Numbered from the stretch's first letter, positions 2,767 through 34,185 are shown. The stretch: 41,366 nucleotides of DNA from Thermoplasmata archaeon (GCA_021806235.1 JAJZXU010000030.1:1-41366), one strand, 5' to 3'. Numbers and translations: made by a program. Notes: a model not told the origin generated them from the letters alone.

Positions 2767-2767
2767 T

Positions 2768-5466: not shown

Positions 5467-6263
5467 ATCTGGCGTGCCCCCTCTATTGATCTTGGTTTAA
5501 TTCTGCTAATTATATACAATGAAAGTATAAATAGTATTATTATCCATACTGCCAGGGAAGATACGCTGTACTCCAGATTTATTACTGAACCTGTAAAATT
5601 CCCCAGCATAAAATGTATACCCTTCCCATAAAATGAGTATACCATGATATCTGCTATATCGTTGAATGGGCTTATATAAACTAATTTTTCAGGCAATGAG
5701 ATAAACAGCTGTGGAAAAGCAAGAAGATATGTTGCCATAAGCGGTATATATGCACCAAATGATATGTTTTTTAACCCTATATAATTGTTAATTACTACAA
5801 TCAGCACAATGGATAAAAGAAGCATAAAAACCGCCGAAGCTATGCCTGTGAGTATAGCGTATACGGGCAGTGCTGGAATTAAATGGTATCCGGACTTTAT
5901 ACCAAACATCAGCATAGCCATAAGCAGTATTATAATATTAAAGATTAAGCCAATAAAACATATGGATATAACAAAATCCATGATATACCTTGAGGGTTTT
6001 AATAGGGTATATCTAAAGGAATATGCAAGGGCAGAATTGCTATAGTATACGGAAAAACCTATGCTTGTTGCCAGGCTGCTTGTGGATATTAGCCCTATAA
6101 TGCCATACCAGACTGCAGCATTGTATAGTGATACTGAATAATTATTGCTTTTAAATCCAAACACGAATGCCCCCATGAAAAGCCAGAAGATCATAAACAC
6201 AATTCCCCACGACCATAACGTTTTATTTTTAAGCATCCTGATTGTTAATAATTTAATCATCAC
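5463..6263 (-). CDS. ABC-2 type permease
   Basis: The 266-residue protein has six predicted membrane helices, including LWSWGIVFMIFWLFMGAFVF, FVISICFIGLIFNIIILLMA, AILTGIASAVFMLLLSIVLI and VWIIILFILSLYIISRI. The order and spacing fit an ABC-2 exporter subunit. It follows the ATPase gene with a 4-base overlap. Translation could start at GTG 6261-6263 or at the ATG right after it (6258-6260), and the sequence GTGATG does not decide. The substrate is unknown; such archaeal exporters often move peptides, lipids or drugs. Confidence 0.75.
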   Translation of the reverse strand: MMIKLLTIRMLKNKTLWSWGIVFMIFWLFMGAFVFGFKSNNYSVSLYNAAVWYGIIGLISTSSLATSIGFSVYYSNSALAYSFRYTLLKPSRYIMDFVISICFIGLIFNIIILLMAMLMFGIKSGYHLIPALPVYAILTGIASAVFMLLLSIVLIVVINNYIGLKNISFGAYIPLMATYLLAFPQLFISLPEKLVYISPFNDIADIMVYSFYGKGIHFMLGNFTGSVINLEYSVSSLAVWIIILFILSLYIISRIKPRSIEGARQI

Positions 6264-7030
6264 AGGCCATCACCCGTTATATAGTCAAAACCCGGCAGGT
6301 CTATCAGCCTGATCTCACCATCATTCTCAGTGATGGAAAATGTATGCTTTCCGTTTTTAATATCCCAGAGGCTGTCATCATTCAATTCCTGGTTAAGATA
6401 TAATTTTTCAATCTGTGAGGTGGAGAATTCCGGAGACATGATACCATCAATTAGAAAATATAGCCCATAATTCTTCATCTGTTTCAGGATCTCAAACTCA
6501 TGTGTATTCATAATTATTTCTGCGTCCAGTTTATTAAACCATTCTAAAAGTTTTATTCTCCTGCCATAATCAATATTGTCAAAGGGTTCATCGAGCAAAA
6601 TTGTTCTGGCACCGCAGGAAAGTGCAAGTATATTGCATAAAAGTTTTTCCTGGCCCGTGCTAAGTTCATCAATATTCTTATCCAGAATTCCCTTCAGGTT
6701 GAATTCGTCCAGCACTGTATATACTGTTGAAACATCCTTTCCCTTCAGTTCCGAATAAATAGTTACTATATCCTTTACATTGCGTGTTAATCTATATATC
6801 TCCGGCAGATTAAAGGATGTGTTCACCATATTTCTAATAGAGCTACTTTCATTTCCATTTATTTCGCAGTTTCCAGTATAATCCACCAGTCCGAGCATAC
6901 CCTTTAACAGCATTGTTTTTCCAGCACCATTTGGCCCAATAATTACATTGTTTCCACCAAAACTCGCTGTAATATTATTTACCACGTATTTTTTCCCCAG
7001 TGCAATATTGAAATTTTTCAACTCAATCAT
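6260..7030 (-). CDS. ABC transporter ATPase subunit
   Basis: This 256-residue nucleotide-binding subunit shows Walker A GPNGAGKT near residue 33, signature LSTGQEKLL near 122, Walker B ARTILLDEPFD near 140, and the H-loop NTHEFE near 175. The signature is STGQ rather than SGGQ, which is common in ABC-2 type exporters. It is the first gene of a four-gene operon (ATPase, permease, second membrane protein, winged-helix regulator), all on the minus strand with overlapping ends. A TTTTATATG-like box lies about 20 bases before the ATG. Confidence 0.9.
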   Translation of the reverse strand: MIELKNFNIALGKKYVVNNITASFGGNNVIIGPNGAGKTMLLKGMLGLVDYTGNCEINGNESSSIRNMVNTSFNLPEIYRLTRNVKDIVTIYSELKGKDVSTVYTVLDEFNLKGILDKNIDELSTGQEKLLCNILALSCGARTILLDEPFDNIDYGRRIKLLEWFNKLDAEIIMNTHEFEILKQMKNYGLYFLIDGIMSPEFSTSQIEKLYLNQELNDDSLWDIKNGKHTFSITENDGEIRLIDLPGFDYITGDGL

Positions 7031-7181
7031 AATTATTGTATTGTTAAAACATATAAAATATGGAATTAAAGTTCAGGTTTTGAACTGCAAAATATATAGA
7101 TTCCGTTTTTTAATGCCGGTAAATTAAATAAAATATAATATTTATTATGGATTTAATTAAAGAAAAAATGTAAAAATAAAA

Positions 7182-7756
7182 TTATGGTGGTGCCAGAAGA
7201 TGCTGTGGAACTGCTTCAATTGCGGTAAAGGCCGCAAGCACAGAAGATACTATCAACCCGATCCAGAATATTACCAGTATAACCGTCCATAGTACAGAGG
7301 ATTTATCCTTTACTGGAAATTCGTCGTAAATTAGAGTTGCTGGAAATGTGAAAATTCCGGTTAATCCGAAAGCAATATACAGTCCAGGCATGGCTATTGG
7401 TGTTTTTGCCATTCCATCTATATACGCATTGGCACCATAATAAATGGCAATAATGCCAGAAAATAAGGCGACAATACCCACATACTGTAATTTCTGCCTT
7501 AATATTATAGCTATAGCCATTAACAGAATGTTGTAGCTGCCGGGCAGTGGCCATTTCATTTTACCATAGAGGGGCATTGTGATTATTATAACTCCAAACG
7601 CCAGAGTGGAAATGCCCCGGGTCTCAGGTTATTCTCGATATCCTTTGTGCCAGTTTTTTTATACTGGAAAAATACGAAGGCTGTCATATAAACGGCTATT
7701 ACCCCTACTGGAGAGAGAAGAAATAGCTCCAATGCAAGGTCATCAATAAAAGCCAT
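7182..7756 (-). pseudogene. DUF981-like membrane protein gene with one frameshift
   Basis: A good start (ATG 7754-7756 with ribosome site GAGGTGATAAA) begins MAFIDDLALELFLLSPVGVI and runs to about residue 48 (NNLRPG). There the frame is lost at a CCCGGGG run near 7620. In the next frame the protein continues directly (TLAFGVIIITMPLYGKMKW) to the stop at 7182. One extra G would join both parts into about 192 residues with five or so helices, the usual size of DUF981 proteins. The downstream half is an intact reading frame by itself (131 residues from 7577) but lacks its own ribosome site. It could be a real mutation or a sequencing error. Confidence 0.65.
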
Positions 7757-7809
7757 TTTATCACCTCTTATATATATTTTTTGCTAGCAAAAACTTTGTG
7801 TTGGGGAAA

Positions 7810-8502
7810 TTAATCCCGCTTTTTTCCTGAAAAAATGTATACAGTACCGAATGCTTTTTCCTCAAACATTTCAAGTTCAAGATATTTTTCAGCTATTTTT
7901 CTTACCTCAGAATTTAATGGTATTCTCTTATAAATATCATAAATAAATTTATAATCCGATGATTTTTCACCACCAAAAATAGCGAGATATGGCTGTACAT
8001 AATGCAGGTAAAAACCAGAAATAAACCGGTAAAACCTGTTGTCTGATTTTCCCATGGCTATTACACCAACGGAATTGCCTGCAACTCTGGTGAATTCCCT
8101 TATTACCATCTCAATATTATCTGCGGCATGAAGGGCAAAAGTACTTATTACCGCATCAAATGAGTTATCCTTAAATGGCAGATTATCAAATGATGCCAGA
8201 ACCATATCATTCTCAACAATAGAATTTCTTAACATGTTTTCAGAATAATCTGTCATAACTATATATGCCTCTGAAATTTTTTTTATAATAAATGACAGCT
8301 CACCCTTTCCACAGGCCGCATCCAGAATTTTTGATGGGTTGTGGTTTACAACTACCTGCTTTGCAATAAAGGTTCGCCATTTAATATCCTGGAAAAATGA
8401 TATATAGGCATTTGCACGATCATATCCAGCGGGAATTTTGTTATATATCTCATTTAGTTCCCTATCGGTGATTCCTGCAGCTTTTTTGAGGTTTTTGCCC
8501 AC
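7810..8502 (-). CDS. Class I SAM-dependent methyltransferase (UbiE/Methyltransf_11-like)
   Basis: This 230-residue protein has motif I ILDAACGKGELS near residue 60, acidic post-motif II (VMTDYSENML) and a Methyltransf_11 core NLPFKDNSFDAVISTFALHA. This is the small-molecule type of methyltransferase, related to UbiE/MenG. The substrate cannot be told from sequence. It starts with GTG at 8500-8502. The gene is divergent from the Trm112-like zinc-ribbon gene at 8600, and the 97-bp space between them must hold both promoters. Trm112-like proteins activate some methyltransferases, which makes a functional link possible. Confidence 0.75.
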   Translation of the reverse strand: MGKNLKKAAGITDRELNEIYNKIPAGYDRANAYISFFQDIKWRTFIAKQVVVNHNPSKILDAACGKGELSFIIKKISEAYIVMTDYSENMLRNSIVENDMVLASFDNLPFKDNSFDAVISTFALHAADNIEMVIREFTRVAGNSVGVIAMGKSDNRFYRFISGFYLHYVQPYLAIFGGEKSSDYKFIYDIYKRIPLNSEVRKIAEKYLELEMFEEKAFGTVYIFSGKKRD

Positions 8503-8599
8503 TATAATAATATAAATAAAAAATACTTAATACTTTCGATGTTTTGTAAACTTTTGATATTTTCATTAAATATTTATATTATAGAAGATTATAATTTAT

Positions 8600-8926
8600 A
8601 TGGAAACAGGCCTAAGGAATATTCTAAGGTGCCCTGTGTGTTTCAGTTCCAGCCTTCAGGTTATGTCATTTTCCGATGATGGAACAGCTGCACCGGGCAG
8701 TGAGGAGGATTATAAAATTATTGAACTGGATACTAGAGAAATATATAATGGCATTATTTTCTGTGCAAACTGCAAACATTGGTTTCCCATAATTAAAAAA
8801 ATTCCGGTGCTGCTTAATGATGAATCAGGTGATAGGAGCAGGGATGGGGAATTTTTAGAAAAATATGAACACACTATACCGAAAGAATTTCTGGATATAT
8901 ATCTAGCAAAAAATAAACAACCATAA
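8600..8926 (+). CDS. Trm112-like zinc-ribbon protein
   Basis: The 108-residue protein has two knuckles, CPVC near residue 11 and CANC near 55, around a linker, followed by WFPIIKKIPVLL. This is the Trm112/UPF0434 pattern (Trm112p family). Family members act as obligate partners that stabilise methyltransferases for tRNA, rRNA or release factors. A TATA-like AAATATTTATATTAT lies about 25 bases before the ATG, so the transcript is probably leaderless. Neighbours on both sides are methyltransferase genes (7810 minus, 9179 plus). Partnering is inference. Confidence 0.75.
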   Translation: METGLRNILRCPVCFSSSLQVMSFSDDGTAAPGSEEDYKIIELDTREIYNGIIFCANCKHWFPIIKKIPVLLNDESGDRSRDGEFLEKYEHTIPKEFLDIYLAKNKQP

Positions 8927-9178
8927 TAATCTATATCCTGTATTTTATTAATTCAGGCTATTACTATAAAAGACCTCTACACAGCAGTTTTTAATGCTTT
9001 ACTATAATATGGAATAATGGGTATTTTATATTTTTAGAATTAAAATAAATAAGTTGCTGCGCTGAAAAATGCCATACTGGGGAAAACTGGTATAATAACG
9101 TTAAATATGTTATACATCCTAACAGATATAATAATAGCTGGAGAAAAGTTTAATTATGGTTATTGTACTGAGTTTATC

Positions 9179-9805
9179 ATGTCTGATCCAGAGTTTGGGG
9201 TATACCATCACTCTACTAAAGAGCAGTCCGAAAACTTAAGAAAAACTGCGAAGGCAATGTTTGAAGAGGCTTTTAAAAAAATAGAGATTCCGGATGATGC
9301 TAAAATAAATATACTCGATGCCGGTGCTGGCTCTGGATTTCTTACATATATAACTGCTTCATATTTTCAGAATGCCCACATTACAGCTATTGACAGTTTT
9401 GCAGATGAATCATTGAAGGGAAATTCAGTGGATAGGATAAAAGAAAACCTGAAAACTCTGGGAATTTTGGACAGAGTAACAGTACTGGAAGAAGATCTCA
9501 GGACACCCATTAACACGGGCAGGATTTTTGATCTTGCCATATCGAACATTGTACTGCACAACCTTGGAAGAGCAAGGTTTTTGGCATATAGCAATATAGG
9601 CAAAACAATTAAATGCAAGGGTTATTTCCTTAATGCTGACGGTTTTATAAGGAAGAACATCTTTACAGATCCATTCAGAAAAGATATGGCCAGAATTGCC
9701 AGTTCATTCTCTCCAGATTTTGCTATGGAGCCCAGCTACCAGAGGAAAAAGTCAGCATGGAGATATATACTTGTTGGATTAAAAACATTATGTGTGGAAA
9801 AATAA
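9179..9805 (+). CDS. SAM-dependent methyltransferase
   Basis: Motif I is NILDAGAGSGFLTYI near residue 45, followed by ITAIDSFADESL and a motif IV-like DLAISNIVLHNL. It resembles Methyltransf_25/31 enzymes; the substrate is unknown. I place the start at ATG 9179-9181 (MSDPEFGVYHHS, 208 residues) because a GTTTAATTATGG box lies about 27 bases upstream. A longer frame from 9107 would add 24 hydrophobic residues and lacks a ribosome site. Together with the 7810 gene and the Trm112-like gene it forms a small methylation cluster. Confidence 0.7.
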   Translation: MSDPEFGVYHHSTKEQSENLRKTAKAMFEEAFKKIEIPDDAKINILDAGAGSGFLTYITASYFQNAHITAIDSFADESLKGNSVDRIKENLKTLGILDRVTVLEEDLRTPINTGRIFDLAISNIVLHNLGRARFLAYSNIGKTIKCKGYFLNADGFIRKNIFTDPFRKDMARIASSFSPDFAMEPSYQRKKSAWRYILVGLKTLCVEK

Positions 9806-10157
9806 ATAACTATGAGGAATACAGTAACTGCATAAATTTAAATAGAATCTATAGCCCAGTACATGTATTTTTATGCATAATATACAGGATCATATAGAAT
9901 AATTAGTCTAAGTTAAATTAGTCTAATTAGAATTAGAAAGTTATTTTAATCATAGAAACTACTTTCTTTATTATATTGTATGATGTTATCATGGAATCAA
10001 AAACAATAAGTGTGAAAAGTATACTAATACTGTGCATATGGAATGTCTTCAACAATGTATGGCTGTGCCCCATTTACCATTTAAGCACATCGACAGATAA
10101 CTTTCATGCATGACACATAAACCTGCATCGCCTGCACTTCCTTGATCAGATTAGAAA
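9806..10157. other. Gap of about 350 bp with a short direct repeat
   Basis: AATTAGTCTAA occurs twice, at 9901-9911 and 9916-9926, 15 bases apart. The repeat has no gene with a clear start just downstream, except a 40-codon frame at 9991-10113 that I do not accept as a gene. No other signal was found. Confidence 0.35.
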
Positions 10158-10190
10158 AAATGATGGCCATATTAATTATAGTATGGCCAT
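10158..10190 (-). terminator. Intrinsic-type terminator of the surface protein gene
   Basis: A perfect 9-bp stem, ATGGCCATA (10163-10171) with TATGGCCAT (10182-10190), sits at the stop codon of the surface protein gene. On the minus strand it is followed by a run of six T (10155-10160 region). This is the best hairpin-plus-T-run in the window. Confidence 0.65.
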
Positions 10191-12313
10191 TATCTCCTTC
10201 TCTTTCCCACCAGAAGCCCTAAAATAGCTATGACAGCTACTGCAACCACTGCTATGGCTACAATCTGAAGAGTGCCCAGTTTAAAGGGAGTTGCCGGAGC
10301 TACTGGAGCTGATGGCAGGGCAGATGGTGTATATGCCCAGTAGAGTGTTGGGTCCTTTGGGAGATTATATACATATAATATAACCGTAAAGTTTGAGGTA
10401 AAGGTTATGCTGAAATTCTTATCCCTTACATTGTTAATATATACAGAGCTGTTAAGTATCTCAGCAACTGTAACATTCTTCATGCTGTTATATGGTATCA
10501 TGACCGTTAATGTCCCGTTATTTGTGGCAGTGAAATTTACGGTTACTGAACCGTTTCCATTTATTACCTTTGCAATTGTAACGTTATATCCCGTGGCATT
10601 TGTTCCATTTGCTACCCTGCTTGATGTGTATTTTGGCTCCTTTACCAGAACAAAGTTCACAGTTTGTGATGTTGTTGCATTAATGCTTTTTGATATGGGG
10701 AAATAGCCAGGACTGTAAGCCGAGACCGTGTAATCACCTTTAGCAACTGATATGCTGTAGCTACCGTTTAATGGATTGACTGGGACAGGGTTTCCACCTA
10801 TAAATACAGATGATCCGAATGATGGGGTAACCTTACCTGAAATTGTTACAGAATTTGTTATTGCAGATAGTGTGATGTTCTGTGTTGTGGTTTTTCCGGA
10901 AGCTATAATAATTGTATAGGTTTTGCTCTGGTACCCTGAATGTGTTGCTGAAAGATAGTATTTACCAGGAGTCAGTGATATATTATATTTCCCATTTACT
11001 ACCGGTATGGACATGCCACTTAAAAGAAGTGTGGTTCCAGATGGGGAAACCGTGCCACTGAGATAGCCACTGCTTGCTACCATTGGGATGTTTGTACTGC
11101 TAAGTACCATATTTACACTTATGGAATAATTGTAGCCTTCCACTGACATACTGTAGGCCATGCCAAATTTCACCATGAGGCCGGAATATGCACCAACATA
11201 AATATTGAAACTCATATTATTTTCAGTTGCATTCTGCCCAGAAATCTCATAAGTTGAAAAAGTCCCGGCAGCTGTTGTAACTGTAACATTTTTAACACTG
11301 AAATGTGTAAAATCAAAGAATGCCGGAGCCTTCCCGTTTTTTAACATTAATAAACTTGTCGAATTTAAAGCCATGAAATTGCCCGTGTTAGTAAGGCTAG
11401 CAGTGTAGTTGCCTGATTGCCCAAAGAAATAAGAACTATTGCTGGAAGTAACATTAAAAGCGAAACTCCCATTTGACTCAACAGATGTAATTTTATATTG
11501 CGAGGTGATAAATGTTGTGGTCGTTCTCATGCCGGTGCTAAATGGGGGATGCCCTGAGATAGGGATGTTTGTAGAATTTGCTTTTAGATACAGGCTTGGT
11601 ACAGATATGTCAGAACTATTAACATATGCTTTAAGGACCAGTCCATTGTTGTATGAAAGATAAGACGTTAGATTTTCATATAGTTCAGTTGTATTAACCT
11701 TATCGGCCCTTACTGTTTTGCCGGATATGGTATAGTTTATGTTGCTATTAACAGTTGCACCGGACATCATAGGTGTATAATGGCCAGAATCCATAAAGTA
11801 CAGTGCATACGTAGAGAATGCTGGGAAACCATAATAATTAGAAATCCCTATCTGATAAGTGCTAGAAATTCCCGTTCCCGCAATAGTAGTATTATTTGCA
11901 TAGGTGGTTTCCTTAACGTCGCCTACAGTATTGGCATAATTTATGTAAGAAACGAATTTTACAGAATACGACGTTGCATTTTCTTTATATATAGAAACAT
12001 TGTATGTACCATTGTATGTACCGTTGTTGTAGCCATAAGAACTGTATGAACTGAAAGTGTAATTCACATAAGCTCCCTTAAAGAGCCATGAAGGCGTTAT
12101 TGATGATATATTAGTAGGTGGACTATTTGTTTTTACTGAACTAATATATGAATAATTAGTATATGCACCCTTGAAAAACCAGGGAGGAGAATTTGAAGAT
12201 GAGACCGATGGGGTAGATGCCCCTGAGGGGATAACCGGACCTACACTGGCAAACAACATTATCACTACCATTATAAACGCGAATAGAACAGAAACACTAT
12301 ATTTTTTTACCAT
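10190..12313 (-). CDS. Large exported, membrane-anchored surface protein with two carboxypeptidase-regulatory-like domains
   Basis: From the ATG at 12311-12313 the product has 707 residues. A signal peptide (VKKYSVSVLFAFIMVVIML) is followed by a duplicated motif: PPWFFKGAYTNYSY, then PSWLFKGAYVNYTF about 40 residues later. A long Ser/Thr/Asn/Tyr-rich ectodomain follows with dozens of N-x-S/T sites, as expected for a heavily glycosylated coat protein of an acidophile. Near residues 410-560 two tandem beta-sandwich repeats appear (GTVSPSGTTLLLSG with GKYYLSATHSGYQSKTY; GKVTPSFGSSVFIGG with GDYTVSAYSPGYFPISK), like CarboxypepD_reg/PEGA folds. The C-terminus has a membrane helix (IVAIAVVAVAVIAILGLLVG) and KRRR stop. 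A frame beginning at 12376 would place 21 extra residues before the signal and is unlikely. Function may be cell coat or substrate binding. Confidence 0.8.
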   Translation of the reverse strand: MVKKYSVSVLFAFIMVVIMLFASVGPVIPSGASTPSVSSSNSPPWFFKGAYTNYSYISSVKTNSPPTNISSITPSWLFKGAYVNYTFSSYSSYGYNNGTYNGTYNVSIYKENATSYSVKFVSYINYANTVGDVKETTYANNTTIAGTGISSTYQIGISNYYGFPAFSTYALYFMDSGHYTPMMSGATVNSNINYTISGKTVRADKVNTTELYENLTSYLSYNNGLVLKAYVNSSDISVPSLYLKANSTNIPISGHPPFSTGMRTTTTFITSQYKITSVESNGSFAFNVTSSNSSYFFGQSGNYTASLTNTGNFMALNSTSLLMLKNGKAPAFFDFTHFSVKNVTVTTAAGTFSTYEISGQNATENNMSFNIYVGAYSGLMVKFGMAYSMSVEGYNYSISVNMVLSSTNIPMVASSGYLSGTVSPSGTTLLLSGMSIPVVNGKYNISLTPGKYYLSATHSGYQSKTYTIIIASGKTTTQNITLSAITNSVTISGKVTPSFGSSVFIGGNPVPVNPLNGSYSISVAKGDYTVSAYSPGYFPISKSINATTSQTVNFVLVKEPKYTSSRVANGTNATGYNVTIAKVINGNGSVTVNFTATNNGTLTVMIPYNSMKNVTVAEILNSSVYINNVRDKNFSITFTSNFTVILYVYNLPKDPTLYWAYTPSALPSAPVAPATPFKLGTLQIVAIAVVAVAVIAILGLLVGKRRR

Positions 12314-18432: not shown

Positions 18433-18942
18433 ATCCTGAACTTATATGCCTTTATCATATCCCCTTCTGACCCTCCACATATTTATTTATTATTTCTGAT
18501 GATACATTGCCATAGGTGGATACAAAATAGCTCCTTGTCCACAGGGTTGGCAGCTTACTCTTCAGTTCAGGGAACTCTAACCTGAGTAATCTTGATGTTC
18601 TGCCTTTTACCTTTGCGATTACACTGTTTGGTGCTATTGTTGGGTCTGTTTTGATGAAGAGGTGCACATGGTCTGGCATGGTTTCCAGTGCAATAATCTC
18701 CCAGTTATTTTCCTGTGCAACACCCATGATTATCTCCTTTAATCTAATTTCAATATTCCCTGTAATTAGCTTTCTTCTATATTTTGGGCACCAGACAAAA
18801 TGATAGTTCATGAAATGAATAGATGTGCTTGAACTGCTGTAGCCCTTTGGCATAATTATAGATATATATTTTTCATATATAATATAATCGGTTCGCTCTC
18901 ATCCCACCCGTAAATGGTGTAGGTTTTCTCGCTCACTGTGAT
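18378..18942 (-). mobile_element. Truncated IS200/IS605-family element (tnpA intact, tnpB only its start)
   Basis: This element matches the complete copy at 32511-34275. It has the same left-end sequence beyond tnpA (GGTTCGCTCTCATCCCACCC to CTCACTGTGATAAT, about 18889-18942), a full tnpA, and the first 27 codons of tnpB (18458 down to about 18378: MIKAYKFRIYPDKEQIQ). The remaining tnpB, the right end and part of vapC are gone, so a deletion from inside the element into vapC is likely. The left end borders the TATA box of the next operon. Confidence 0.8.
18455..18853 (-). CDS. tnpA: IS200/IS605 transposase TnpA (Y1, HUH type)
   Basis: The 132-residue protein starts MPKGYSSSSTSIHF and contains MNYHFVWCPKYRRKLI, the HUH motif in MPDHVHLFIK, and the catalytic tyrosine helix IINKYVEGQ near residue 125. 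These are the parts needed for single-strand DNA cleavage and rejoining. It is about 85-90 percent identical by eye to the copy at 33790. The element has lost its right end, so this copy could at most act on other copies. Confidence 0.85.
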   Translation of the reverse strand: MPKGYSSSSTSIHFMNYHFVWCPKYRRKLITGNIEIRLKEIIMGVAQENNWEIIALETMPDHVHLFIKTDPTIAPNSVIAKVKGRTSRLLRLEFPELKSKLPTLWTRSYFVSTYGNVSSEIINKYVEGQKGI

Positions 18943-18944
18943 AA

Positions 18945-18975
18945 TATTTATATATACCGAACCTGTATAATATAT
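18945..18975 (+). promoter_or_regulatory. Promoter of the flavoprotein/GlpD/lipid-kinase operon
   Basis: A TATTTATATATACC box at about 18945-18958 lies close to 27 bases before the GTG start at 18976, giving a leaderless transcript. The IS200/IS605 left end finishes right at this box, so everything upstream of the TATA box has been replaced by the insertion. Confidence 0.55.
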
Positions 18976-20478
18976 GTGAAAAAAATTCCAGTGCTCTATG
19001 GGTACAGCATTGACCGGGACTTCTCACGGGAATTTTCTTACATTGAGGATATTTTCGGGATAAAGTCTGAGGAGATATGGGACGGTACTATCGAAATGGA
19101 TGATAGGGAATACAGCAGTATACCGGATAGGGCTAGCAGCTATTTTGACAGGTCATATACCACTTTCGACCTGGAAAACAGGTTTATCCACTCAACAGGA
19201 AAATCTTCTGTTGAGGTTCTTAAATGGAGGCTTGGAATTAAACCATATATAGTTGATGCTGTCCTGGAGCCGGATTATTTTAATATATCTGATATAATAA
19301 AAAATCTGAAAAATTCTGGTTACAGGGCACTGATATATGGTGGCGGTACATCTGTTAACGGGTCATTTATCCTGGAAGACCCGGAAAAATTTGTATCTGT
19401 GGATACCTCCCGGTTAAGCAAAATAAAAATGAACGGGTCTATGGTTACTGCCGGTGCCGGGGTAAAGGGTGTAGAACTTGAGAATTACCTGAACACATAT
19501 GGGCTGACATGCGGGCAATTTCCAGAATCATTTATGTATTCCACAGTTGGTGGATGGATAGCCACAAAGGCAACAGGCCAGGAATCGAACCTGTATGGTG
19601 GAATTGAAGACATGGTGATATCCCTGAAGGCGGCAACATCCAGTGGCATATATAAGGATAATTGTGTACCCAGGGAATCAGCTGGCACACAGGCAAAATC
19701 AATTTTTACCGGAAGTGAGGGGAATTATGGAATTATAATGGAGGCAACGTTAAAGGCTTTCAAAATGCCAGCACAGCGGTATTATAAATCCTACATATTC
19801 AGGGATTTTATTTCCGGAATTGAGTATATACGATCGTTAAAAAATGTACCCACAGTACTGAGATTTTCTGATGCAACTGAAACTGAAATAGCTATAAAGA
19901 GCTCTGGTGACACATTACTAAAAAGGATTTTCTTAAACTACCTGAAGATAAGGCATGCTGATAGTGGATGCATTATGGTAATTGTCAACAATGACAGCAA
20001 ACCCGGGGATAAAGTGGAAAATGCCATTTATACCGGTAAATATCCTGCAATCCAGTGGTTCAGGGATAGATATTCCAGGCCAGGACTTGCCAATATTCTA
20101 TGGAAACATGGATATATCCCGGATACACTTGAAACATCTGCAGCATGGGATAACCTCAAACCACTGTACGAGAGCACCATTGCAATTTTTAATTCTATAA
20201 AAACAGAGCTAAAATTCTCCGGCATAATCATGGCGCATATCTCACATGTATACCTGACCGGTGCATGCATATATTTTACCATAATAATCAGATCGGACAA
20301 ACCCATGGAGCACCTGATTGAAATAAGGCATAAAATGGTAAATAATTTCCTGAAAAACCACGCAGCGATTACAGACCACCATGGAATTGGCACACTATTC
20401 AGGGAATATTTAAGTGAGGAGGAGCTATCACTCCAGTCCAGGCTATATGATCCGGTTTTTTCGAGGTGGTATACATAG
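18976..20478 (+). CDS. FAD-linked oxidase resembling alkyl-dihydroxyacetonephosphate synthase (AGPS)
   Basis: This 500-residue protein has the p-cresol-methylhydroxylase-type FAD domain: YGGGTSVNG near 120, then PESFMYSTVGGWIATKATG and LYGGIEDM near 185-210, and VPRESAGT with TGSEGNYGII near 230-250. These lines match AGPS (GGxTSV, STVGGWV, PRxSxG, GSEGxxG) better than D-lactate or glycolate oxidases. The C-terminal part keeps DHHGIG, corresponding to the HHHG active-site region of AGPS. The protein is shorter than human AGPS and ends soon after this motif. AGPS makes ether lipids from acyl-DHAP in bacteria and eukaryotes, whereas archaea normally use glycerol-1-phosphate, so the real substrate is open. 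The start is a leaderless GTG. It overlaps the GlpD-like gene by 13 bases. Confidence 0.75.
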   Translation: MKKIPVLYGYSIDRDFSREFSYIEDIFGIKSEEIWDGTIEMDDREYSSIPDRASSYFDRSYTTFDLENRFIHSTGKSSVEVLKWRLGIKPYIVDAVLEPDYFNISDIIKNLKNSGYRALIYGGGTSVNGSFILEDPEKFVSVDTSRLSKIKMNGSMVTAGAGVKGVELENYLNTYGLTCGQFPESFMYSTVGGWIATKATGQESNLYGGIEDMVISLKAATSSGIYKDNCVPRESAGTQAKSIFTGSEGNYGIIMEATLKAFKMPAQRYYKSYIFRDFISGIEYIRSLKNVPTVLRFSDATETEIAIKSSGDTLLKRIFLNYLKIRHADSGCIMVIVNNDSKPGDKVENAIYTGKYPAIQWFRDRYSRPGLANILWKHGYIPDTLETSAAWDNLKPLYESTIAIFNSIKTELKFSGIIMAHISHVYLTGACIYFTIIIRSDKPMEHLIEIRHKMVNNFLKNHAAITDHHGIGTLFREYLSEEELSLQSRLYDPVFSRWYT

Positions 20479-21815
20479 ATTTTGAATTTTCAAGGCATAC
20501 AAGAAATAATATTCTCAGGGATATTGATGGGTCAAAATTTGACGTTGCCATTATCGGTGGTGGAATTACAGGTGCAGGCATAGCGAACATACTTGCAGAG
20601 AATGGAATAAACACAATTCTCATTGACCAGAATGACTTTGCCTCGGGTACCAGTTCCGGATCCTCGAAACTTATCCATGGCGGATTGCGGTATCTCCAGC
20701 AGGGAAGGATTTTAGAGGTTTACCGCCTGTTAAAGGAAAGAAATTATCTGCTCAAAAATACGGATATAGTTAAAAAACTAAACTTCCGCATACTTACAGG
20801 AAAAAATATGTGGAATCCATACGAGATCGGGTTAGGATTATTTTTATATAATATTATGTCAGGTTCTTTACATTTGCCGCACTTTGTAAAAAATAATGGC
20901 GAATACAAATATGGCACCTCCGGGTATTTTAACTACTATGATGGTGTAACTATCGATTCGGAACTTGTAATATATAATATTGTATCAGCCTTCAGGCACG
21001 GTGCGGTATGCCTTAATTATTGCAAACTTGTAAGTGTATCAAAACATAGTGGAAATTACAGCCTTGAGATTGAAAATGTTATCACCGGGAAGAATTTTAA
21101 CGTTTATTCATTTATTGTGGTAAATGCCGCAGGCCCATGGGGCAATGCAGTGTCAGACATACTTGGTGCCGGCACAGTTAAGAATTTTCATCTGAGCCGC
21201 GGGGTACATATCGTATTTCCATCCGAACTGTGGAATGACCAGAACGCCGTTGTTGTGAAGTCCGCAGTTGATGGGAGGCAGCTATTCATAATACCTGCTG
21301 GAAAGGTTGTGTATACCGGAACCACTGATAATTTTGTGGATGCACCCGATAGCTTTTCCGTACCGGAGGCGGATATTAAATACCTGATTAATAGCATCAA
21401 ACCCTTATTTCCACAATTCACAGAGGATAAAATAATTTATTCCTTCGCAGGCATCCGTGTACTCATTGGCAGTGGCAGCAACCCGGGTAAAATAACACGT
21501 GATTTCAGTATTGGCGAATCTGATAGAATTATTACTGTTCTTGGTGGAAAGATTACAGACCATAGAATTGCAGCAAGGAAAACCGCAAAAATAGTAGGAA
21601 ATTTAATGGGCAAAAAACTGAAAATAAAAAATATGCCATATATTGATTATTCAAGGAATAAGGAGAATATAATGGATAATATTTTAAGGTATGAATGCCC
21701 CGTAAAAATGGAGGATGTAATACGCAGGCGGATTGCTGTGAGCATATACGATCCGGTGCAACTTCCGGCAATGATAAACAGGCTTGCTGATACATTTGGG
21801 GGTGAATTAATATAA
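20466..21815 (+). CDS. glpD: FAD-dependent glycerol-3-phosphate dehydrogenase, GlpD-like
   Basis: The 449-residue protein carries the FAD-binding GxGxxG motif AIIGGGITGAGIANILAENG near residue 28, the GlpD hallmark ASGTSSGSSKLIHGGLRYLQ near 60-80, VVNAAGPWGN near 219, and the second FAD contact VLGGKITDHRIAA near 360. GlpD oxidises glycerol-3-phosphate to DHAP and passes electrons to membrane quinones. The start GTG at 20466 lies inside the end of the AGPS-like gene, and the lipid-kinase gene begins 2 bases after its stop. DHAP is the common metabolite linking it to its AGPS-like neighbour. Confidence 0.85.
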   Translation: MVYIDFEFSRHTRNNILRDIDGSKFDVAIIGGGITGAGIANILAENGINTILIDQNDFASGTSSGSSKLIHGGLRYLQQGRILEVYRLLKERNYLLKNTDIVKKLNFRILTGKNMWNPYEIGLGLFLYNIMSGSLHLPHFVKNNGEYKYGTSGYFNYYDGVTIDSELVIYNIVSAFRHGAVCLNYCKLVSVSKHSGNYSLEIENVITGKNFNVYSFIVVNAAGPWGNAVSDILGAGTVKNFHLSRGVHIVFPSELWNDQNAVVVKSAVDGRQLFIIPAGKVVYTGTTDNFVDAPDSFSVPEADIKYLINSIKPLFPQFTEDKIIYSFAGIRVLIGSGSNPGKITRDFSIGESDRIITVLGGKITDHRIAARKTAKIVGNLMGKKLKIKNMPYIDYSRNKENIMDNILRYECPVKMEDVIRRRIAVSIYDPVQLPAMINRLADTFGGELI

Positions 21816-21817
21816 GG

Positions 21818-22684
21818 GTGCATATCATTGTAAATAAATATGCCGGGAAAGGAAACGGGGAACAGGCAATGAATAAAATAAAAGCGATGCTAACAGGTGT
21901 TGATGTTTCCTCGTCATTTACAGAGAAGACTCCTGATGCCCTTATAAAATACATAAAAGAAAATCAGGATATAACCTATCTTATTGCCATAGGTGGTGAT
22001 GGTACACTGAACCAGTGTGCCCGGGCCATTGCCTGGAGCAATATTGTACTTATACCATTTCCTGCCGGAACTGGAACGGATTTTGTCAGAACTGCAGGGA
22101 AATTATCACCAGAAATGATTATGGATGTTATTAAAAATAATAATTTCCGTTACTGTGACCTTGGTGAAATTACCTCAGACATATATTCCGGATTTTTTAT
22201 AAATATTATGGAGGCGGGGATGGGGGGAGCAGTTATGAAACGTGTGAATTCAAGCAGTGCAAGGAGTGGATTGACCATATCATCTTCCATATTAAGGGAG
22301 GTATTAAAGGGCAATAAATACCACCTTCTTATGAAATCAGAAGAAGGGGATTACAGTGGGGATATTATGGATGTGGTTATTGCAAATGGCCAGTACTACG
22401 GCAAGGGAATCCACATATCCCCGGAATCAATACTGGATGATGGTTTCCTGGATGTACACATTATTAAACACATGCCACGCCTTGAAACGCTATCAAAACT
22501 GAGAATGTTAAGAAATGGAACATATATAAGGGATAAAAACGTGATTAACCTTAAAACACGTGAAGTATCCATCGATTCTGATGGCCCTGTAGAGATAGAC
22601 GGCGAAAGTTTCGATCCAGGGAAAATGAAAATAAAGGTGTGCCACAATGCATTGAAAATTTTTAACCAGGTTTTCAAACCCTGA
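21818..22684 (+). CDS. Diacylglycerol/lipid kinase-like protein (DAGK_cat)
   Basis: The 288-residue protein shows the DAGK catalytic signature AIGGDGTLNQCA near residue 55, FPAGTGTDFVR near 87 and ANGQYYGKGIHISPESILDD near 190-210. These are the three conserved blocks of the DgkB/YegS/sphingosine kinase fold. It phosphorylates a lipid or a glycerol-like alcohol using ATP; the exact substrate is unknown. Start is GTG at 21818, 2 bases after the glpD stop, so it is the last gene of a compact operon on glycerolipid-type chemistry. Confidence 0.8.
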   Translation: MHIIVNKYAGKGNGEQAMNKIKAMLTGVDVSSSFTEKTPDALIKYIKENQDITYLIAIGGDGTLNQCARAIAWSNIVLIPFPAGTGTDFVRTAGKLSPEMIMDVIKNNNFRYCDLGEITSDIYSGFFINIMEAGMGGAVMKRVNSSSARSGLTISSSILREVLKGNKYHLLMKSEEGDYSGDIMDVVIANGQYYGKGIHISPESILDDGFLDVHIIKHMPRLETLSKLRMLRNGTYIRDKNVINLKTREVSIDSDGPVEIDGESFDPGKMKIKVCHNALKIFNQVFKP

Positions 22685-24143: not shown

Positions 24144-24599
24144 ATGGAAAAAACTACAACCATTACCTTTTTTTTAATCTTTGTTTATATAATCTTTATT
24201 TTTTTCTATGTTCTACTTGCTATCCCTCTCGTTATATTTTTTTATTTTCTTCTAGTCACGCAACTTGAAATAGAAAAACGGTTGTTATATAAAATATCTT
24301 TAATTCCATTGCCTTTTGCAATAATTACTATGATAATGTTTATTGATGCCATGATGTATGGTTACATTCCAGTGCATTCTTATAATGGCTTCCACCCGGC
24401 AATAGGTGTTTATATTGTTCTATCCGCATCAATATATTTCATTTTATTTGGTTTTATGCTTGCGATTTTTAGAAAACAAATTTTACAGCATATTAAGGAA
24501 ATGTATTCCCTAACTGATGAAGGTACAAAAGTGTTCACTGAGCATCTTCATTCTAAGAAAAGGAAGAAAGAAATTATTGAAAAGTATAAAGTGAGATAA
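24144..24599 (+). CDS. Small four-helix membrane protein, tandem copy 1 (possible immunity protein)
   Basis: The 151-residue protein starts MEKTTTITFFLIFVYI behind the ribosome site AGGTGATGAA. It has four membrane helices, a conserved central loop (YGYIPVHSYNGFHPAIGVYI) and a charged cytoplasmic tail (KEMYSLTDEG, HSKKRKKEIIEKYKVR). The same layout and loop recur in the next two genes. It begins 8 bases after the exported protein gene, so it is in its operon. I do not recognise the family. Confidence 0.65.
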   Translation: MEKTTTITFFLIFVYIIFIFFYVLLAIPLVIFFYFLLVTQLEIEKRLLYKISLIPLPFAIITMIMFIDAMMYGYIPVHSYNGFHPAIGVYIVLSASIYFILFGFMLAIFRKQILQHIKEMYSLTDEGTKVFTEHLHSKKRKKEIIEKYKVR

Positions 24600-24611
24600 T
24601 TAGGTGATAAA

Positions 24612-25056
24612 ATGGAAAGGGTGATGTATTATTAGTTATTTTTTTCCCTTTATTGATTATTTGTTTTATGCAGTTATGATTGCTATTATTATATTTCTTT
24701 TCCTTCTTGAAATCAGGCAGGCTGAAATAGAAAAGAAACTGTTATATAAAATGCTCGTAATTCCCATATCCCTGGAAATAATCGCTATGATATTCTTTAT
24801 TGATGGCATGGTAGATGGTTATCTTCCAACATACGAATATAATGGTTTCTACCCCGCAATAGGTTTTTATATTGTTGTGTCCGCGTCAATATATGGGCTT
24901 TCGTTTGCTTTAATGACACTGGTTTTTAACAAACAAATTGTGCGGCATGTTAAGGAAAAGCATTCCCTGACGGATGAGGGTGCAAGGCTATTGGCTAACC
25001 ATACTTATACCAAGAGACAAAAGGAAGAAATTATTGAAAATTATAAAAGGCGATAA
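24612..25056 (+). pseudogene. Small membrane protein, tandem copy 2, frameshifted near its start
   Basis: A ribosome site (TAGGTGATAAA) and ATG at 24612 are in the same place as in the other copies, but the frame reads MERVMYY and stops at 24633-24635. The family sequence continues in another frame (LFYAVMIAIIIFLFLLEI, then GYLPTYEYNGFYPAIGFYI) to the stop at 25054-25056. One base change in length near 24622-24630 explains this. A shortened product could still start at TTG 24661 (131 residues), but this lacks a ribosome site. The body and tail are well preserved, so the damage is recent. Confidence 0.6.
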
Positions 25057-25057
25057 A

Positions 25058-25528
25058 ATGGAAAAAACTACAATTCTCTTCTATACTTTCTTCTGTATTT
25101 TAATCTTCATGTTCTTTGCTTTTTTCTATATCCTACCTATTATCCCTCTCTTTATATTTTTTTGTTTTTTTATGGTTAGGCAGGAGGAAATCGAGAATAA
25201 ATTGTTATATAAAACATCTTTAATTCCATTGCCTTTTGGAATAATTACTTTGATAATTCTTATTGCTGCCATGGTGGATGGTTATCTTCCAGCATATGCT
25301 TATAATGGCTTCCACCCGGCAATAGATTTTTATATTGTTCTATCCTTGTCAGTATATAGTCTTTTATTTGCTTTGATAAATCTGATTTTTATTAAACAAA
25401 TTGTGCGGCATGTTAAGGAAAAGTATTCCCTGACAGACGAGGGTGCGATGGTGTTCCTCCGGGACATTCATACCAAGAGACAAAAGGAAGAAATTATTGA
25501 AGCATATAAAAGAGATAATTACCGGTGA
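25058..25528 (+). CDS. Small four-helix membrane protein, tandem copy 3
   Basis: The 156-residue protein starts MEKTTILFYTFFCILIFM at the ATG of 25058-25060, one base after the stop of copy 2, with GGCGATAAA as a weak ribosome site. It repeats the family loop (DGYLPAYAYNGFHPAIDFYI) and the tail (KEKYSLTDEGAMVF, TKRQKEEIIEAYKR). A longer frame from 24974 would overlap copy 2 and is rejected because the family start MEKTT fits. Helices differ more than loop and tail, suggesting selection on the latter. Confidence 0.65.
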   Translation: MEKTTILFYTFFCILIFMFFAFFYILPIIPLFIFFCFFMVRQEEIENKLLYKTSLIPLPFGIITLIILIAAMVDGYLPAYAYNGFHPAIDFYIVLSLSVYSLLFALINLIFIKQIVRHVKEKYSLTDEGAMVFLRDIHTKRQKEEIIEAYKRDNYR

Positions 25529-30139: not shown

Positions 30140-31588
30140 ATGCAAAAAATTGAACCAGTACCGGTAACAGTTGCCTATGGTGATGGCATAGGGCCTGAAA
30201 TCATGCAGGCTACCCTGGATATTTTGATGGCTGCAGGGGCAAAGCTGAAAATAGAGAAAATCACCATTGGTGAAGAAATCTACAGGAAAGGCATCACCTC
30301 AGGAATTGAGCCCTCTGCCTGGGATTCCCTAAGAAAAACTAAAGTCTTCCTGAAGGCACCGATTACAACCCCTGAGGGTGGAGGGTTCAAGAGCCTTAAT
30401 GTAACCATTAGAAAAACCATGGGCCTGTTTGCAAATGTAAGGCCATGCCTCTCTTATTCGCCATACATAAAGAGTAAACACGAGGGGATGGATATTGTCA
30501 TAGTGCGGGAAAATGAGGAAGACCTCTATGGAGGTATTGAGCACCAGCAAACTGATGAGGTTATGCAGTGCCTTAAACTTATTACTGTGCCAGGATCAGA
30601 GAGAATAGTGCGCTATGCCTTTGAGTATGCCAGAAGATACGGACGCAAGAAAGTTACCTGCTTCACAAAAGATAACATAATGAAACTGACGGACGGCACT
30701 TTTCATAAAGTATTTGATGAGGTTGCATCTGAATACCCGGATATCAAAAATGAACACTGGATTGTTGATATTGGTGCAGCAAAAATGGCTGATTCACCAA
30801 CACAGTTTGATGTGATTGTCATGCCCAACCTATACGGTGATATTTTATCTGACGTAGCTGCAGAAATCGCAGGTTCTGTCGGCATCGCTGGAAGTGCAAA
30901 CATAGGCGATAAAATTGCGATGTTTGAAGCAATACACGGTTCGGCTCCAAGAAGGGCTGGACAGAACCTTGCAAACCCCTCGGGGCTGCTCCTGGCTGCA
31001 GTACAGATGCTTGTCCATATTGGGCAGGGAGAAGTGGCTGCGAAGGTACATAATGCATGGTTGAAGACCATTGAAGATGGAATACACACATACGACATAT
31101 ATGACCCGGAAATTTCAACAAAAAAGGTTGGAACCAGGGAGTTTGCGGAGGCAGTTAAGAATAACCTTGGATCACTTCCCACAAAATTTAAACCTGTAGA
31201 GTACCCATCACAGTCTGAACCGATCAGGGTATCTTTAAAAACACGTGCCCCAAGAGAAAAGGTGCTTGTAGGTGTGGATGTCTTTATTGATTGGGACGGC
31301 AGCGCAGAAGATCTCGGGAGAAGACTGGAAGAGATTTCTGGAACAGATTATAAACTGGAAATGATAACCAACAGGGGCACAAAAGTTTACCCACACGGTT
31401 TCCCAGAGACCTTCTGCGTGGATCACTGGAGGTGCAGATTCAAATTTGTTAAACCCGATGAAAAGCCCTATGATCATATGTTATCCCTTTTATCCAGACT
31501 TGTCAAAAATGAACTTCCACCAATAAAGACCGAGGGTCTCTATTATTTCGAGGGTAAGCCCGGATACTCCCTGGGACAGGGGGAATAA
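30140..31588 (+). CDS. icd: Isocitrate dehydrogenase with bacterial-type C-terminal extension
   Basis: The 482-residue enzyme carries the beta-decarboxylating dehydrogenase fold: YGDGIGPEIM at 13, substrate-binding SLNVTIRKTMGLFANVRP near 85-105, VRENEEDLYGG near 120, and the metal-binding MPNLYGDILSDVAAEIAG near 233. The cofactor region reads IHGSAPRRAGQNLANPSG; arginines rather than Asp-Ile at the discriminating position favour NADP. A C-terminal domain of about 140 residues (VLVGVDVFIDWDG to the end) is typical for Thermus/Rickettsia-like IDHs of about 480 residues. The enzyme belongs to the TCA cycle. The gene is richer in G+C than its neighbours, suggesting transfer from bacteria. A TATTTTATACC box lies about 27 bases before the ATG. 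Confidence 0.9.
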   Translation: MQKIEPVPVTVAYGDGIGPEIMQATLDILMAAGAKLKIEKITIGEEIYRKGITSGIEPSAWDSLRKTKVFLKAPITTPEGGGFKSLNVTIRKTMGLFANVRPCLSYSPYIKSKHEGMDIVIVRENEEDLYGGIEHQQTDEVMQCLKLITVPGSERIVRYAFEYARRYGRKKVTCFTKDNIMKLTDGTFHKVFDEVASEYPDIKNEHWIVDIGAAKMADSPTQFDVIVMPNLYGDILSDVAAEIAGSVGIAGSANIGDKIAMFEAIHGSAPRRAGQNLANPSGLLLAAVQMLVHIGQGEVAAKVHNAWLKTIEDGIHTYDIYDPEISTKKVGTREFAEAVKNNLGSLPTKFKPVEYPSQSEPIRVSLKTRAPREKVLVGVDVFIDWDGSAEDLGRRLEEISGTDYKLEMITNRGTKVYPHGFPETFCVDHWRCRFKFVKPDEKPYDHMLSLLSRLVKNELPPIKTEGLYYFEGKPGYSLGQGE

Positions 31589-31721: not shown

Positions 31722-32531
31722 ATGAATGTAATAGGATTTGACATCGGGGGAACAAACACAACGGTTACCATTGCGGGATATAATAACAACATGGTAAGGA
31801 TATTCAGCTCATATAAATTTAAAACCTGCAAAAATTACCGGGATGAAATTGAAGCCGCCGGAAATTTTATAGAGAGTGGAATAAAAAATTATAATGCAGA
31901 AATTATTGGAATAAGCATTGGTGGTCCAGTAGATATGGGTCACGGCATAATCATAAATCCACCACATCTGCCGGGATACTGGAATATTAATTTAAGGGAG
32001 GTAATGGAAAAGAAATTCAATATCAGGGTTAATATTGTGCACGATGCATTATCTTCAGCGTTTGCAGAATATAAATGGGGCAACGGCAGAAACTCAAAAA
32101 ATATGGTTTTTATGACCTTTGGCACTGGCTTTGGTACGGGTTTTATTATCAATGGAAAACCGTATTATAACGATAAACACACTGAACTTGGGTATAATAG
32201 AATATCCACCGGGTCAAAATTGAATTATGATTATGTATGCAGTGGTTCCGGGTTAAATGATATGATTAAAAAATACGGTGAGGGAAAAGCAATTAAAAAA
32301 TCCTTAAATTATCTATCATATATATTATCATTTTTATCAAACACATTAGGTCTGGATAAAGCTGTTATAGGCGGTGTTTTCACGTATAGATATGATGAAT
32401 TTTATCCATACGTTATAAAACAATTCAAAAAATTATCGTTAAATAATATGGATATAATACCATCGATGTTCGGCAAAGATATTGGGTTATATTCATCTAT
32501 AGCGGCATGTGTGACATCCTCCCACGACTAA
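31722..32531 (+). CDS. ROK-family sugar kinase, C-terminus altered by an IS element
   Basis: This 269-residue protein has the ROK/ASKHA blocks: GFDIGGTNTTVTIAG at 5, GISIGGPVDMGHG near 67, HDALSSAFAEYKWG near 108 and FGTGFGTGFIING near 131. The classical zinc site (CxCGxxGCxE) of bacterial ROK proteins is absent, as in some archaeal members. It probably phosphorylates glucose or a related sugar. The normal sequence ends around SIAAC at about 32510; the last residues (VTSSHD) and the stop codon come from the right end of the IS605 element. Only about 10-20 residues seem lost, so activity may remain. Confidence 0.8.
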   Translation: MNVIGFDIGGTNTTVTIAGYNNNMVRIFSSYKFKTCKNYRDEIEAAGNFIESGIKNYNAEIIGISIGGPVDMGHGIIINPPHLPGYWNINLREVMEKKFNIRVNIVHDALSSAFAEYKWGNGRNSKNMVFMTFGTGFGTGFIINGKPYYNDKHTELGYNRISTGSKLNYDYVCSGSGLNDMIKKYGEGKAIKKSLNYLSYILSFLSNTLGLDKAVIGGVFTYRYDEFYPYVIKQFKKLSLNNMDIIPSMFGKDIGLYSSIAACVTSSHD

Positions 32532-32650
32532 AGCCATGGGCTTCCTGTTTCTACGACGGGAGTTGCCCTTGCGGGTAGAGCTCCAATCTCCTCAAGCGTA
32601 AATTCGGGAGTGCCCCTCCCTACTTTCTTAAAGTGTTTCTGTAAATATAC
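32511..32650 (-). ncRNA. Predicted omega-RNA (reRNA) of the TnpB at the right end of the element
   Basis: TnpB nucleases use an RNA made from the 3' part of tnpB and the right end of their element, with the guide lying just outside. Here the right end contains the hairpin around GGAAGCCCATGGCTTTAG and GTCGTGGGAGGATGTCAC on the minus strand. The tnpB frame runs through it, ending in ALPARATPVVETGSPWL. The guide would be the adjacent chromosomal sequence of the ROK gene (minus strand ACATGCCGCTATAGATGAAT). Extent is approximate. Confidence 0.5.
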
Positions 32651-33793
32651 GTATGCATACAGGAATAATAATAAGCCCCTATTTTTTATATTTATAGCTG
32701 CATTCTCATCCCTATCGATAGTGAGTTCACATGCATTGCATTTGTATATACGATCTGAAAGCTTTAAGTCTTTTTTTATATTTCCACATTTAGAGCACAT
32801 TTTAGATGTATTCCCTGGATCAACCTGTAAAACAACCTTACCGGCACTTTCAGCCCTGTAGGTTGTTTTCCTTATGATATCATACCAGGAAGCATCTGCT
32901 ATGCTCTTTGCTAAATGATGGTTCCTTACCATTCCCTGTATATTCAGTGCCTCAAAAACTATTAGGTTTCCACTGGAAGCTATATTCCTGGACAATTTAT
33001 TTGAGTAATCATCCCTCTGCCTTACTGTCTTTCTGTAAACCCTTGATAGCCTCCGGTTGGCTTTTTTCCAGTTTTTGGAGTACTTCTTTTTCCTTGACAG
33101 GTTTCGATTTGCCCTGACCAATCTCTCCTCTGATTTCCTGAAGTATTGAGGTGCCTCTGTGTGCTCTCCATTGCTGTCTGTTATAAGTGACTTTAATCCT
33201 ACATCATAACCCGCGGGATTCATATCTTCGTTGAGTATTGAAAAGTGATCCTCAACAGTCTGTTCCTTATCAGGATCACCAGCTATAATAACTGCATACC
33301 ATTCACCTGCACCGTTTCTCTTAAATGTAAGTGTTCTTATCCTGCCATCTACAGGGCGGTGCATGAACATTCTTATCTCACCAATCTTTGATGCCAATAT
33401 ATGACCATTCTCAAGTATTTTAAATCCGGACTGTGGATAGGTGATTGAATTATACCTCTTCCTTGATTTAAATCTTGGGAAGCCTGCCTTTATATTCCTG
33501 CCATTTTTCTTCTTATCTACTCTTCTATAAAAGTTATCGTATGCCTTATCAAGCCTCACCGGGACTTCCTGTATTACCTGTGAATGGATGTTATTGAATT
33601 CTGGAAATGCTTTCTTTACCTCAGGTATTTCATTTACCTGGGAATAACGGGTTACCTTCCTTCCCATTCTGTATGCGTATATTCTCTGCTGAAGCATGGC
33701 GTTATACAGCTCACGGCATGCGTTAAGGGTGGATTCAAGGTTCTGGATCTGCTCTTTATCCGGATAGATCCTGAACTTATACGCTTTTATCAT
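32528..33793 (-). CDS. tnpB: RNA-guided nuclease TnpB
   Basis: From the ATG at 33791-33793 (MIKAYKFRIYPDKEQI) the protein has 421 residues. RuvC-like residues appear in order: GYDVGLKSLITDS (Asp), LIVFEALNIQGM (Glu) and TIDRDENAAINI (Asp). A zinc ribbon lies between the last two (CSKCGNIKKDL and YKCNACEL). All catalytic residues are present, so an active nuclease is likely. Its start codon overlaps the tnpA stop (ATGA). A frame from 33874 would run back into tnpA and is rejected. Confidence 0.9.
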   Translation of the reverse strand: MIKAYKFRIYPDKEQIQNLESTLNACRELYNAMLQQRIYAYRMGRKVTRYSQVNEIPEVKKAFPEFNNIHSQVIQEVPVRLDKAYDNFYRRVDKKKNGRNIKAGFPRFKSRKRYNSITYPQSGFKILENGHILASKIGEIRMFMHRPVDGRIRTLTFKRNGAGEWYAVIIAGDPDKEQTVEDHFSILNEDMNPAGYDVGLKSLITDSNGEHTEAPQYFRKSEERLVRANRNLSRKKKYSKNWKKANRRLSRVYRKTVRQRDDYSNKLSRNIASSGNLIVFEALNIQGMVRNHHLAKSIADASWYDIIRKTTYRAESAGKVVLQVDPGNTSKMCSKCGNIKKDLKLSDRIYKCNACELTIDRDENAAINIKNRGLLLFLYAYVYLQKHFKKVGRGTPEFTLEEIGALPARATPVVETGSPWL

Positions 33794-34185
33794 ATCCCCT
33801 TCTGTTCCTCCACGTATTTCTTGATAGTATCTAATGAAACATGACGGGTGGACACAAAATAACTCCTTGTCCACAGGGTTGGCAGCTTTCTCTTCAGTTC
33901 AGGGAACTCTAACCTGAGTAATCTTGATGTTCTGCCCTTTATTTTCGCAATCACCCTGTTTGGTGCTATTGTTGGGTCTGCTTTGGTGAAGAGGTGCACA
34001 TGGTCTGGCATGGTTTCCAGTGCTATGACCTCCCGGTTATTTTCCCGTACAATATCCCCTATTATCTCTTTCAGCCTCAGTTCAATGTCTGGAGTGATGA
34101 TTTTTCTTCTATATTTTGGGCACCAGACAAAATGATAGTTCATGAAATGAACCGATGTGTTTGAACTGCTGTAACCCTTTGGCAT
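33790..34185 (-). CDS. tnpA: IS200/IS605 transposase TnpA (Y1, HUH type)
   Basis: The protein has 131 residues from MPKGYSSSNTSVHF at 34183-34185. It has the HUH motif in MPDHVHLFTK and catalytic tyrosine in IKKYVEEQ. A longer frame from 34266 would start in the left-end hairpin and is not supported by comparison with the copy at 18455, which begins at the same methionine. It is followed by tnpB with overlapping ATGA. This copy with both ends present is the one able to transpose. Confidence 0.88.
   Translation of the reverse strand: MPKGYSSSNTSVHFMNYHFVWCPKYRRKIITPDIELRLKEIIGDIVRENNREVIALETMPDHVHLFTKADPTIAPNRVIAKIKGRTSRLLRLEFPELKRKLPTLWTRSYFVSTRHVSLDTIKKYVEEQKGI

Follow-up and report, generated by a model that had tools for sequence, protein, structure and literature searches.

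This study concerns three consecutive plus-strand genes in a 41,366-nucleotide stretch of DNA from a Thermoplasmata archaeon (GCA_021806235.1, JAJZXU010000030.1:1-41366; the window, taken at its full length). They encode an AGPS-family flavoprotein, i.e. a homologue of alkyl-dihydroxyacetone-phosphate (alkyl-DHAP) synthase (18976-20478, 500 amino acids (aa)), a GlpD-type FAD-dependent glycerol-3-phosphate (G3P) dehydrogenase (20466-21815, 449 aa) and a DAGK/YegS-family lipid kinase (21818-22684, 288 aa), each with a GTG start. The first two genes overlap by 13 bases and a gap of 2 bases separates the second from the third; these coordinates confirm the single operon described in an earlier note on this DNA, but the genes that it called 'fused' are three separate overlapping or adjacent open reading frames. 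A 34-bp promoter block (18942-18975, plus strand) ends at the first GTG and contains the TATA-like box TTTATATATA (18947-18956), 20-29 bp upstream of the start codon. Leaderless transcription, also part of the earlier description, is plausible, since this block is kept with a single mismatch in a sister genome (locus L032) while the DNA farther upstream is unrelated. Just upstream of the promoter, on the minus strand, lies an IS200-type transposase gene (TnpA, 18455-18853), in place of which the sister genome has unrelated DNA. The host is an acid-loving archaeon; its archaeal nature follows from the nearest named record, which, in a contig scan that gave one sister record, is a Thermoplasmata metagenome-assembled genome (MAG) with a 91% identical protein, and from the archaeal glycerol-1-phosphate (G1P) dehydrogenase encoded in the window genome.

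The flavoprotein is composed of FAD_binding_4 and FAD-oxidase_C domains. Its best match in a phmmer search of the PDB is Dictyostelium AGPS (2uuu, E 6e-50, residues 53-473), with an E value of 5e-40 for mammalian AGPS and only 1e-7 for glycolate oxidase. A Foldseek search with its AlphaFold model (predicted local distance difference test score, pLDDT, 88.5) returned 37 top chains that are all AGPS (E 2e-37), ahead of the first lactate dehydrogenase (E 1.5e-24). In an IQ-TREE phylogeny of 46 sequences, the analysis by which the note had proposed to tell true AGPS from glycolate and lactate oxidases, the proteins of the Thermoplasmatales make up a single clade (100/100) inside the group that holds eukaryotic and bacterial AGPS. 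The grouping with lactate or glycolate dehydrogenases that the note had named as its refuting result was not seen: the lactate and glycolate oxidases form a separate clade (100/100) which includes the window genome's own paralogue, L082; the latter matches LctD and glycolate oxidase in the PDB and is directly followed by a gene for a ferredoxin-like CxxCxxC protein.

The active site agrees with this placement. Residues R419, Y578, H616 and H617 (here and below in guinea-pig numbering, unless stated otherwise) are invariant in 25 archaeal rows of the alignment and equally so in the bacterial and eukaryotic rows, and T309 is also retained in the window flavoprotein; the oxidases carry Glu, His and Glu at the R419, Y578 and H616 positions. 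Conversely, the H-x-GDGN-x-H motif, the E-H-G-[IV]-G loop and the Glu at the R419 position are absent from the window flavoprotein and present in paralogue L082. Judging by structure titles, R419 and Y578 are positions that have been mutated in solved AGPS structures, and in the Dictyostelium enzyme R352, Y508 and R447 were found to be important (PMC3509576); in our alignment these correspond to R419, Y578 and R515, respectively. Because the top sequence and fold matches, the position in the tree and the retained catalytic residues all concur, the window flavoprotein is an AGPS, and a lactate or glycolate oxidase (GlcD/LDHD) identity is ruled out by tree, fold and residues. The likeness to the mammalian (4bby) and Dictyostelium (2uuu) enzymes, also known as ADPS, extends over the full length, but sequence identity is 22-24% and the protein is shorter than the guinea-pig enzyme (500 versus 658 aa).

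The family assignments of the other two genes, as of the first, are supported. The GlpD-type protein belongs to the DAO/GlpD family and matches PDB entry 3da1 over its catalytic part (residues 8-378, E 4e-46); with the NCBIfam GlpD model it scores 227 bits, below the equivalog cut-off of 360, and it is the sole GlpD-like gene product in the window genome at E <= 1e-25. The third protein is a DAGK/YegS-family lipid kinase, with DAGK_cat and YegS_C domains and the motifs GGDGT, DDGFLDV and IDGE; alkylglycerol is its predicted substrate.

A comparison of 61 related genomes, 32 with an AGPS orthologue and 29 without, shows that the three genes belong together. The kinase is present in all 32 AGPS genomes versus two of the 29 others (Fisher p 3e-15, shared ancestry ignored), and GlpD accompanies AGPS in 30 of the 32. 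The AGPS-GlpD junction (-56 to +4 bp) recurs in 16 of 32 loci and the kinase gene directly follows AGPS in 11 others; the arrangement is therefore not due to chance. Both genomes with a kinase and no AGPS (G004 and G009) have a mutator-family (PF00872) transposase gene at the site where their relatives have AGPS-GlpD (L069 6632-8944 and L127 5161-7473), and their orphan kinases read DGDGT in place of GGDGT, a change confined to these two. We read this as a probable decaying remnant, in which case the kinase would serve the trio. Glycerol kinase (GlpK) is missing in 20 of the 32 AGPS genomes, and GlpD there is therefore not fed by a glycerol kinase.

The earlier note missed how widely the trio occurs in Thermoplasmatota and that, gene by gene, it is known in actinobacteria. 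AGPS is found at E <= 1e-40 in 45 of 390 genomes of the phylum Thermoplasmatota, and a second family (L105-L107, L116) has the identical order AGPS-GlpD-DAGK. In further families (L108-L119) the operon around an AGPS-like gene also encodes GlpC, GlpA, an FAD oxidoreductase, DUF1667 and GlpK; this is again a combination of a kinase, an FAD-dependent G3P dehydrogenase and an AGPS-like flavoprotein, but with glycerol kinase instead of a lipid kinase and with the flavoprotein in a separate outer clade. In Streptomyces fungicidicus and Tsukamurella the arrangement is GlpD-TetR-AGPS-DAGK, as in Mycobacterium tuberculosis Rv2249c (glpD1)-Rv2250c (regulator)-Rv2251 (flavoprotein)-Rv2252 (diacylglycerol kinase), all four genes of which are raised about equally in an expression table from bacille Calmette-Guérin (BCG; PMC4564863). 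The same three families thus occur together in these bacteria, although their GlpD is longer and lies on the opposite strand along with the TetR regulator. In the tree, DAGK-type trios cluster with true AGPS, and the GlpK-operon type forms the outer clade together with a Microbacterium GlpK/GlpD operon. Kinase type hence tracks AGPS subtype, which is what one would expect of a kinase that readies the flavoenzyme's substrate.

The note had offered salvage of glycerol and alkylglycerols or an unusual ether lipid, and of these options the salvage or breakdown of alkylglycerols is favoured. With somewhat better than even confidence, we interpret the trio as a putative module for the breakdown of scavenged 1-O-alkylglycerol ether lipids. 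The kinase would use ATP to phosphorylate a monoalkylglycerol at its free primary hydroxyl, yielding alkyl-glycerol-3-phosphate, whose sn-2 hydroxyl the GlpD-type flavoenzyme would oxidise to give alkyl-DHAP, with the respiratory chain receiving the electrons. The AGPS homologue, the candidate ether-cleaving enzyme, would then form a flavin-DHAP adduct from the alkyl-DHAP side and expel the long-chain alcohol; such an adduct has been proposed for the forward AGPS reaction (PMC3509576). Water, by assumption, would replace the alcohol and free DHAP for central metabolism, and the alcohol would be oxidised by an iron-type alcohol dehydrogenase (Fe-ADH) and an aldehyde dehydrogenase (ALDH); genes for these two enzymes and for an SCP2 lipid carrier lie next to the trio in relatives and on another contig in the window genome. 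We infer the direction, the substrates and water as the acceptor; the first three steps are suggested by gene families and genomic context. A kinase followed by GlpD fits the oxidative direction and not synthesis, and this pair is sensible mainly in the former. Since the chemistry needs a free C2 hydroxyl, the module probably draws on deacylated 1-O-alkyl lipids from bacteria or eukaryotes, and intact archaeol or glycerol dialkyl glycerol tetraether (GDGT) is excluded as a substrate unless its C2 ether is opened first.

The genes that recur around the trio in relatives point to catabolism: an SCP2-type lipid carrier, Fe-ADH, ALDH, a 2-hydroxyacid dehydrogenase and a thiamine-diphosphate (ThDP) decarboxylase, as well as a phosphoesterase or phospholipase-C-like enzyme with an N-terminal hydrophobic segment that we read as secreted. 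One lineage also has genes for a sphingosine-1-phosphate lyase (PDB E 1e-143) and for an aldehyde:ferredoxin oxidoreductase near those of the trio.

Several observations weigh against the catabolic interpretation. Known AGPS enzymes work in the forward direction, and the proposed route would require their reversal with water. The arginine important in Dictyostelium AGPS is lacking in the archaeal clade, where the R515/R447 position holds A, G, S or Y; an invariant Arg (R368 in window numbering) lies one helix turn upstream, and R515 is kept in a related Thermoplasmatota family and in the actinobacterial trio proteins. H300 is replaced by N, Q or F in most proteins of the clade, and Asp takes the place of H615 in the window flavoprotein and in three relatives. 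The Fe-ADH, SCP2 and ALDH genes are not beside the trio in the window genome, where they lie on another contig (L068), and they are found in some AGPS-negative relatives too. The co-occurrence counts take no account of shared ancestry. Finally, the window genome encodes GlpK, and a role of its GlpD in the use of ordinary glycerol as well is therefore possible.

Among the alternatives, the one that fares best, although we consider it unlikely, is that the AGPS homologue is an eliminating flavoenzyme acting on another DHAP or glycerol ether or ester, such as a small glycerol ether or a head-group remnant. The replaced R515 and H300 would suit such a role, as would the company that AGPS-like genes keep elsewhere, namely GlpK/GlpA in other Thermoplasmatota and FGGY kinases in Enterococcus and Vibrio; the window clade, however, is paired with a lipid-kinase family and not with sugar kinases, clusters with true AGPS, and has SCP2 and alcohol/aldehyde dehydrogenases nearby that suggest lipids. 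Slightly more doubtful is a turnover of archaeal ether lipids, the cell's own or its neighbours', by the same chemistry on glycerol monoethers of the lyso-archaeol type. Archaeal lipids abound in the habitat, alkyl-DHAP has no stereocentre, and the chemistry presumably asks for nothing beyond a free C2 hydroxyl plus a terminal phosphate; yet archaeol and GDGT offer no free C2 hydroxyl before a C2-ether cleavage, GlpD is specific for G3P as far as is known, and a phytanoyl hydroxylase of the PhyH type occurs in none of the 61 genomes.

Improbable, too, is the synthesis of a bacterial/eukaryotic-type alkyl glycerolipid, in which AGPS would form alkyl-DHAP and GlpD would act as a reductase. AGPS is the synthase in animals and is linked to alkenyl ethers in Myxococcus, and the core AGPS residues are retained; but a PF01553 glycerol-phosphate acyltransferase is encoded in none of the 31 genomes checked (the control search was positive in 10 bacteria), so the known route to acyl-DHAP is lacking, and the archaeal partners of AGPS are a kinase and GlpD with no acyltransferase. 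As the archaeal G1P dehydrogenase is moreover present in all 31, canonical alkyl-lipid synthesis by the trio is unlikely; in addition, GlpD-type enzymes oxidise G3P, a lipid kinase would be superfluous in that direction and the neighbouring genes look degradative. The least probable reading, ordinary glycerol catabolism in which GlpD takes GlpK-derived G3P with AGPS and the kinase as passengers, draws on the GlpK and the single GlpD-like gene of the window genome, but was set aside given the many AGPS genomes that lack GlpK, the joint presence of AGPS and kinase in all 32 and the conservation of the trio across distant lineages.

The gene families and their actinobacterial arrangement are already known, but a literature search of partial coverage found neither an AGPS-based ether-degradation pathway nor a pathway for the trio. 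Alkylglycerol monooxygenase (AGMO), which PMC7911779 describes as the sole enzyme known to degrade alkylglycerols, serves the same net purpose of breaking 1-O-alkyl glycerol ethers, but is an unrelated, tetrahydrobiopterin-dependent protein; a reversed AGPS, if true, would be a second, oxygen-independent solution beside it. A broader claim, in which we have slightly less than even confidence, is that an O2- and pterin-independent degradation of ether lipids by lipid kinase, GlpD and reversed AGPS is common to Thermoplasmatota and actinobacteria, including M. tuberculosis, and that archaeal AGPS homologues indicate catabolism and not an ancestral synthesis of ether lipids. AGPS matches in archaeal MAGs have been called surprising (PMC11868695), and the enzyme has been counted among the ether/ester lipid enzymes of the last universal common ancestor (LUCA; PMC11383801). 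Archaeal homologues are often taken for ether-lipid synthesis genes; should they instead degrade scavenged lipids, such conclusions would need revision, and AGPS would be weaker evidence for the lipids of LUCA. The same reading provides a testable function for mycobacterial Rv2249c-Rv2252.

Additional observations concern the surroundings of the trio genes in the relatives and the other contig of the window genome. A clear sphingosine-1-phosphate lyase is encoded near AGPS-DAGK at L061 (18065-19432) and in relatives, in archaea without known sphingolipid synthesis. Locus L068 (G000:C28) encodes in a row (5382-11680) a 2-hydroxyacid dehydrogenase, a benzoylformate-decarboxylase-like ThDP enzyme, SCP2, Fe-ADH and ALDH, with a CoA-transferase III and an acyl-CoA dehydrogenase nearby. 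This looks like a chain-shortening set of the alpha-oxidation type without PhyH. That archaeal chains undergo phytanic-acid alpha-oxidation through PhyH was dropped as an explanation of the recurrent 2-hydroxyacid dehydrogenase and ThDP decarboxylase, given the lack of PhyH in all 61 genomes. The same locus (2500-5040) of this archaeon holds peptidoglycan-directed genes for a beta-lactamase-like enzyme (PF13354), a D-Ala-D-Ala carboxypeptidase (S13) and an NlpC/P60 protein, which suggests that bacteria may be eaten or fought.

Elsewhere in the window, 24144-25528 encodes three small proteins in tandem, which group with one another and follow a 412-aa protein that weakly resembles SLATT; the two that were checked have no Pfam match. 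An isocitrate dehydrogenase of the TIGR02924 (ICDH_alpha) type (30140-31588; 707 bits versus a cut-off of 561) is a possible transfer from bacteria. The minus strand encodes the RNA-guided TnpB of an IS200/IS605-type element (32528-33874) and a Schlafen group 3 helicase-like protein (38223-40109).

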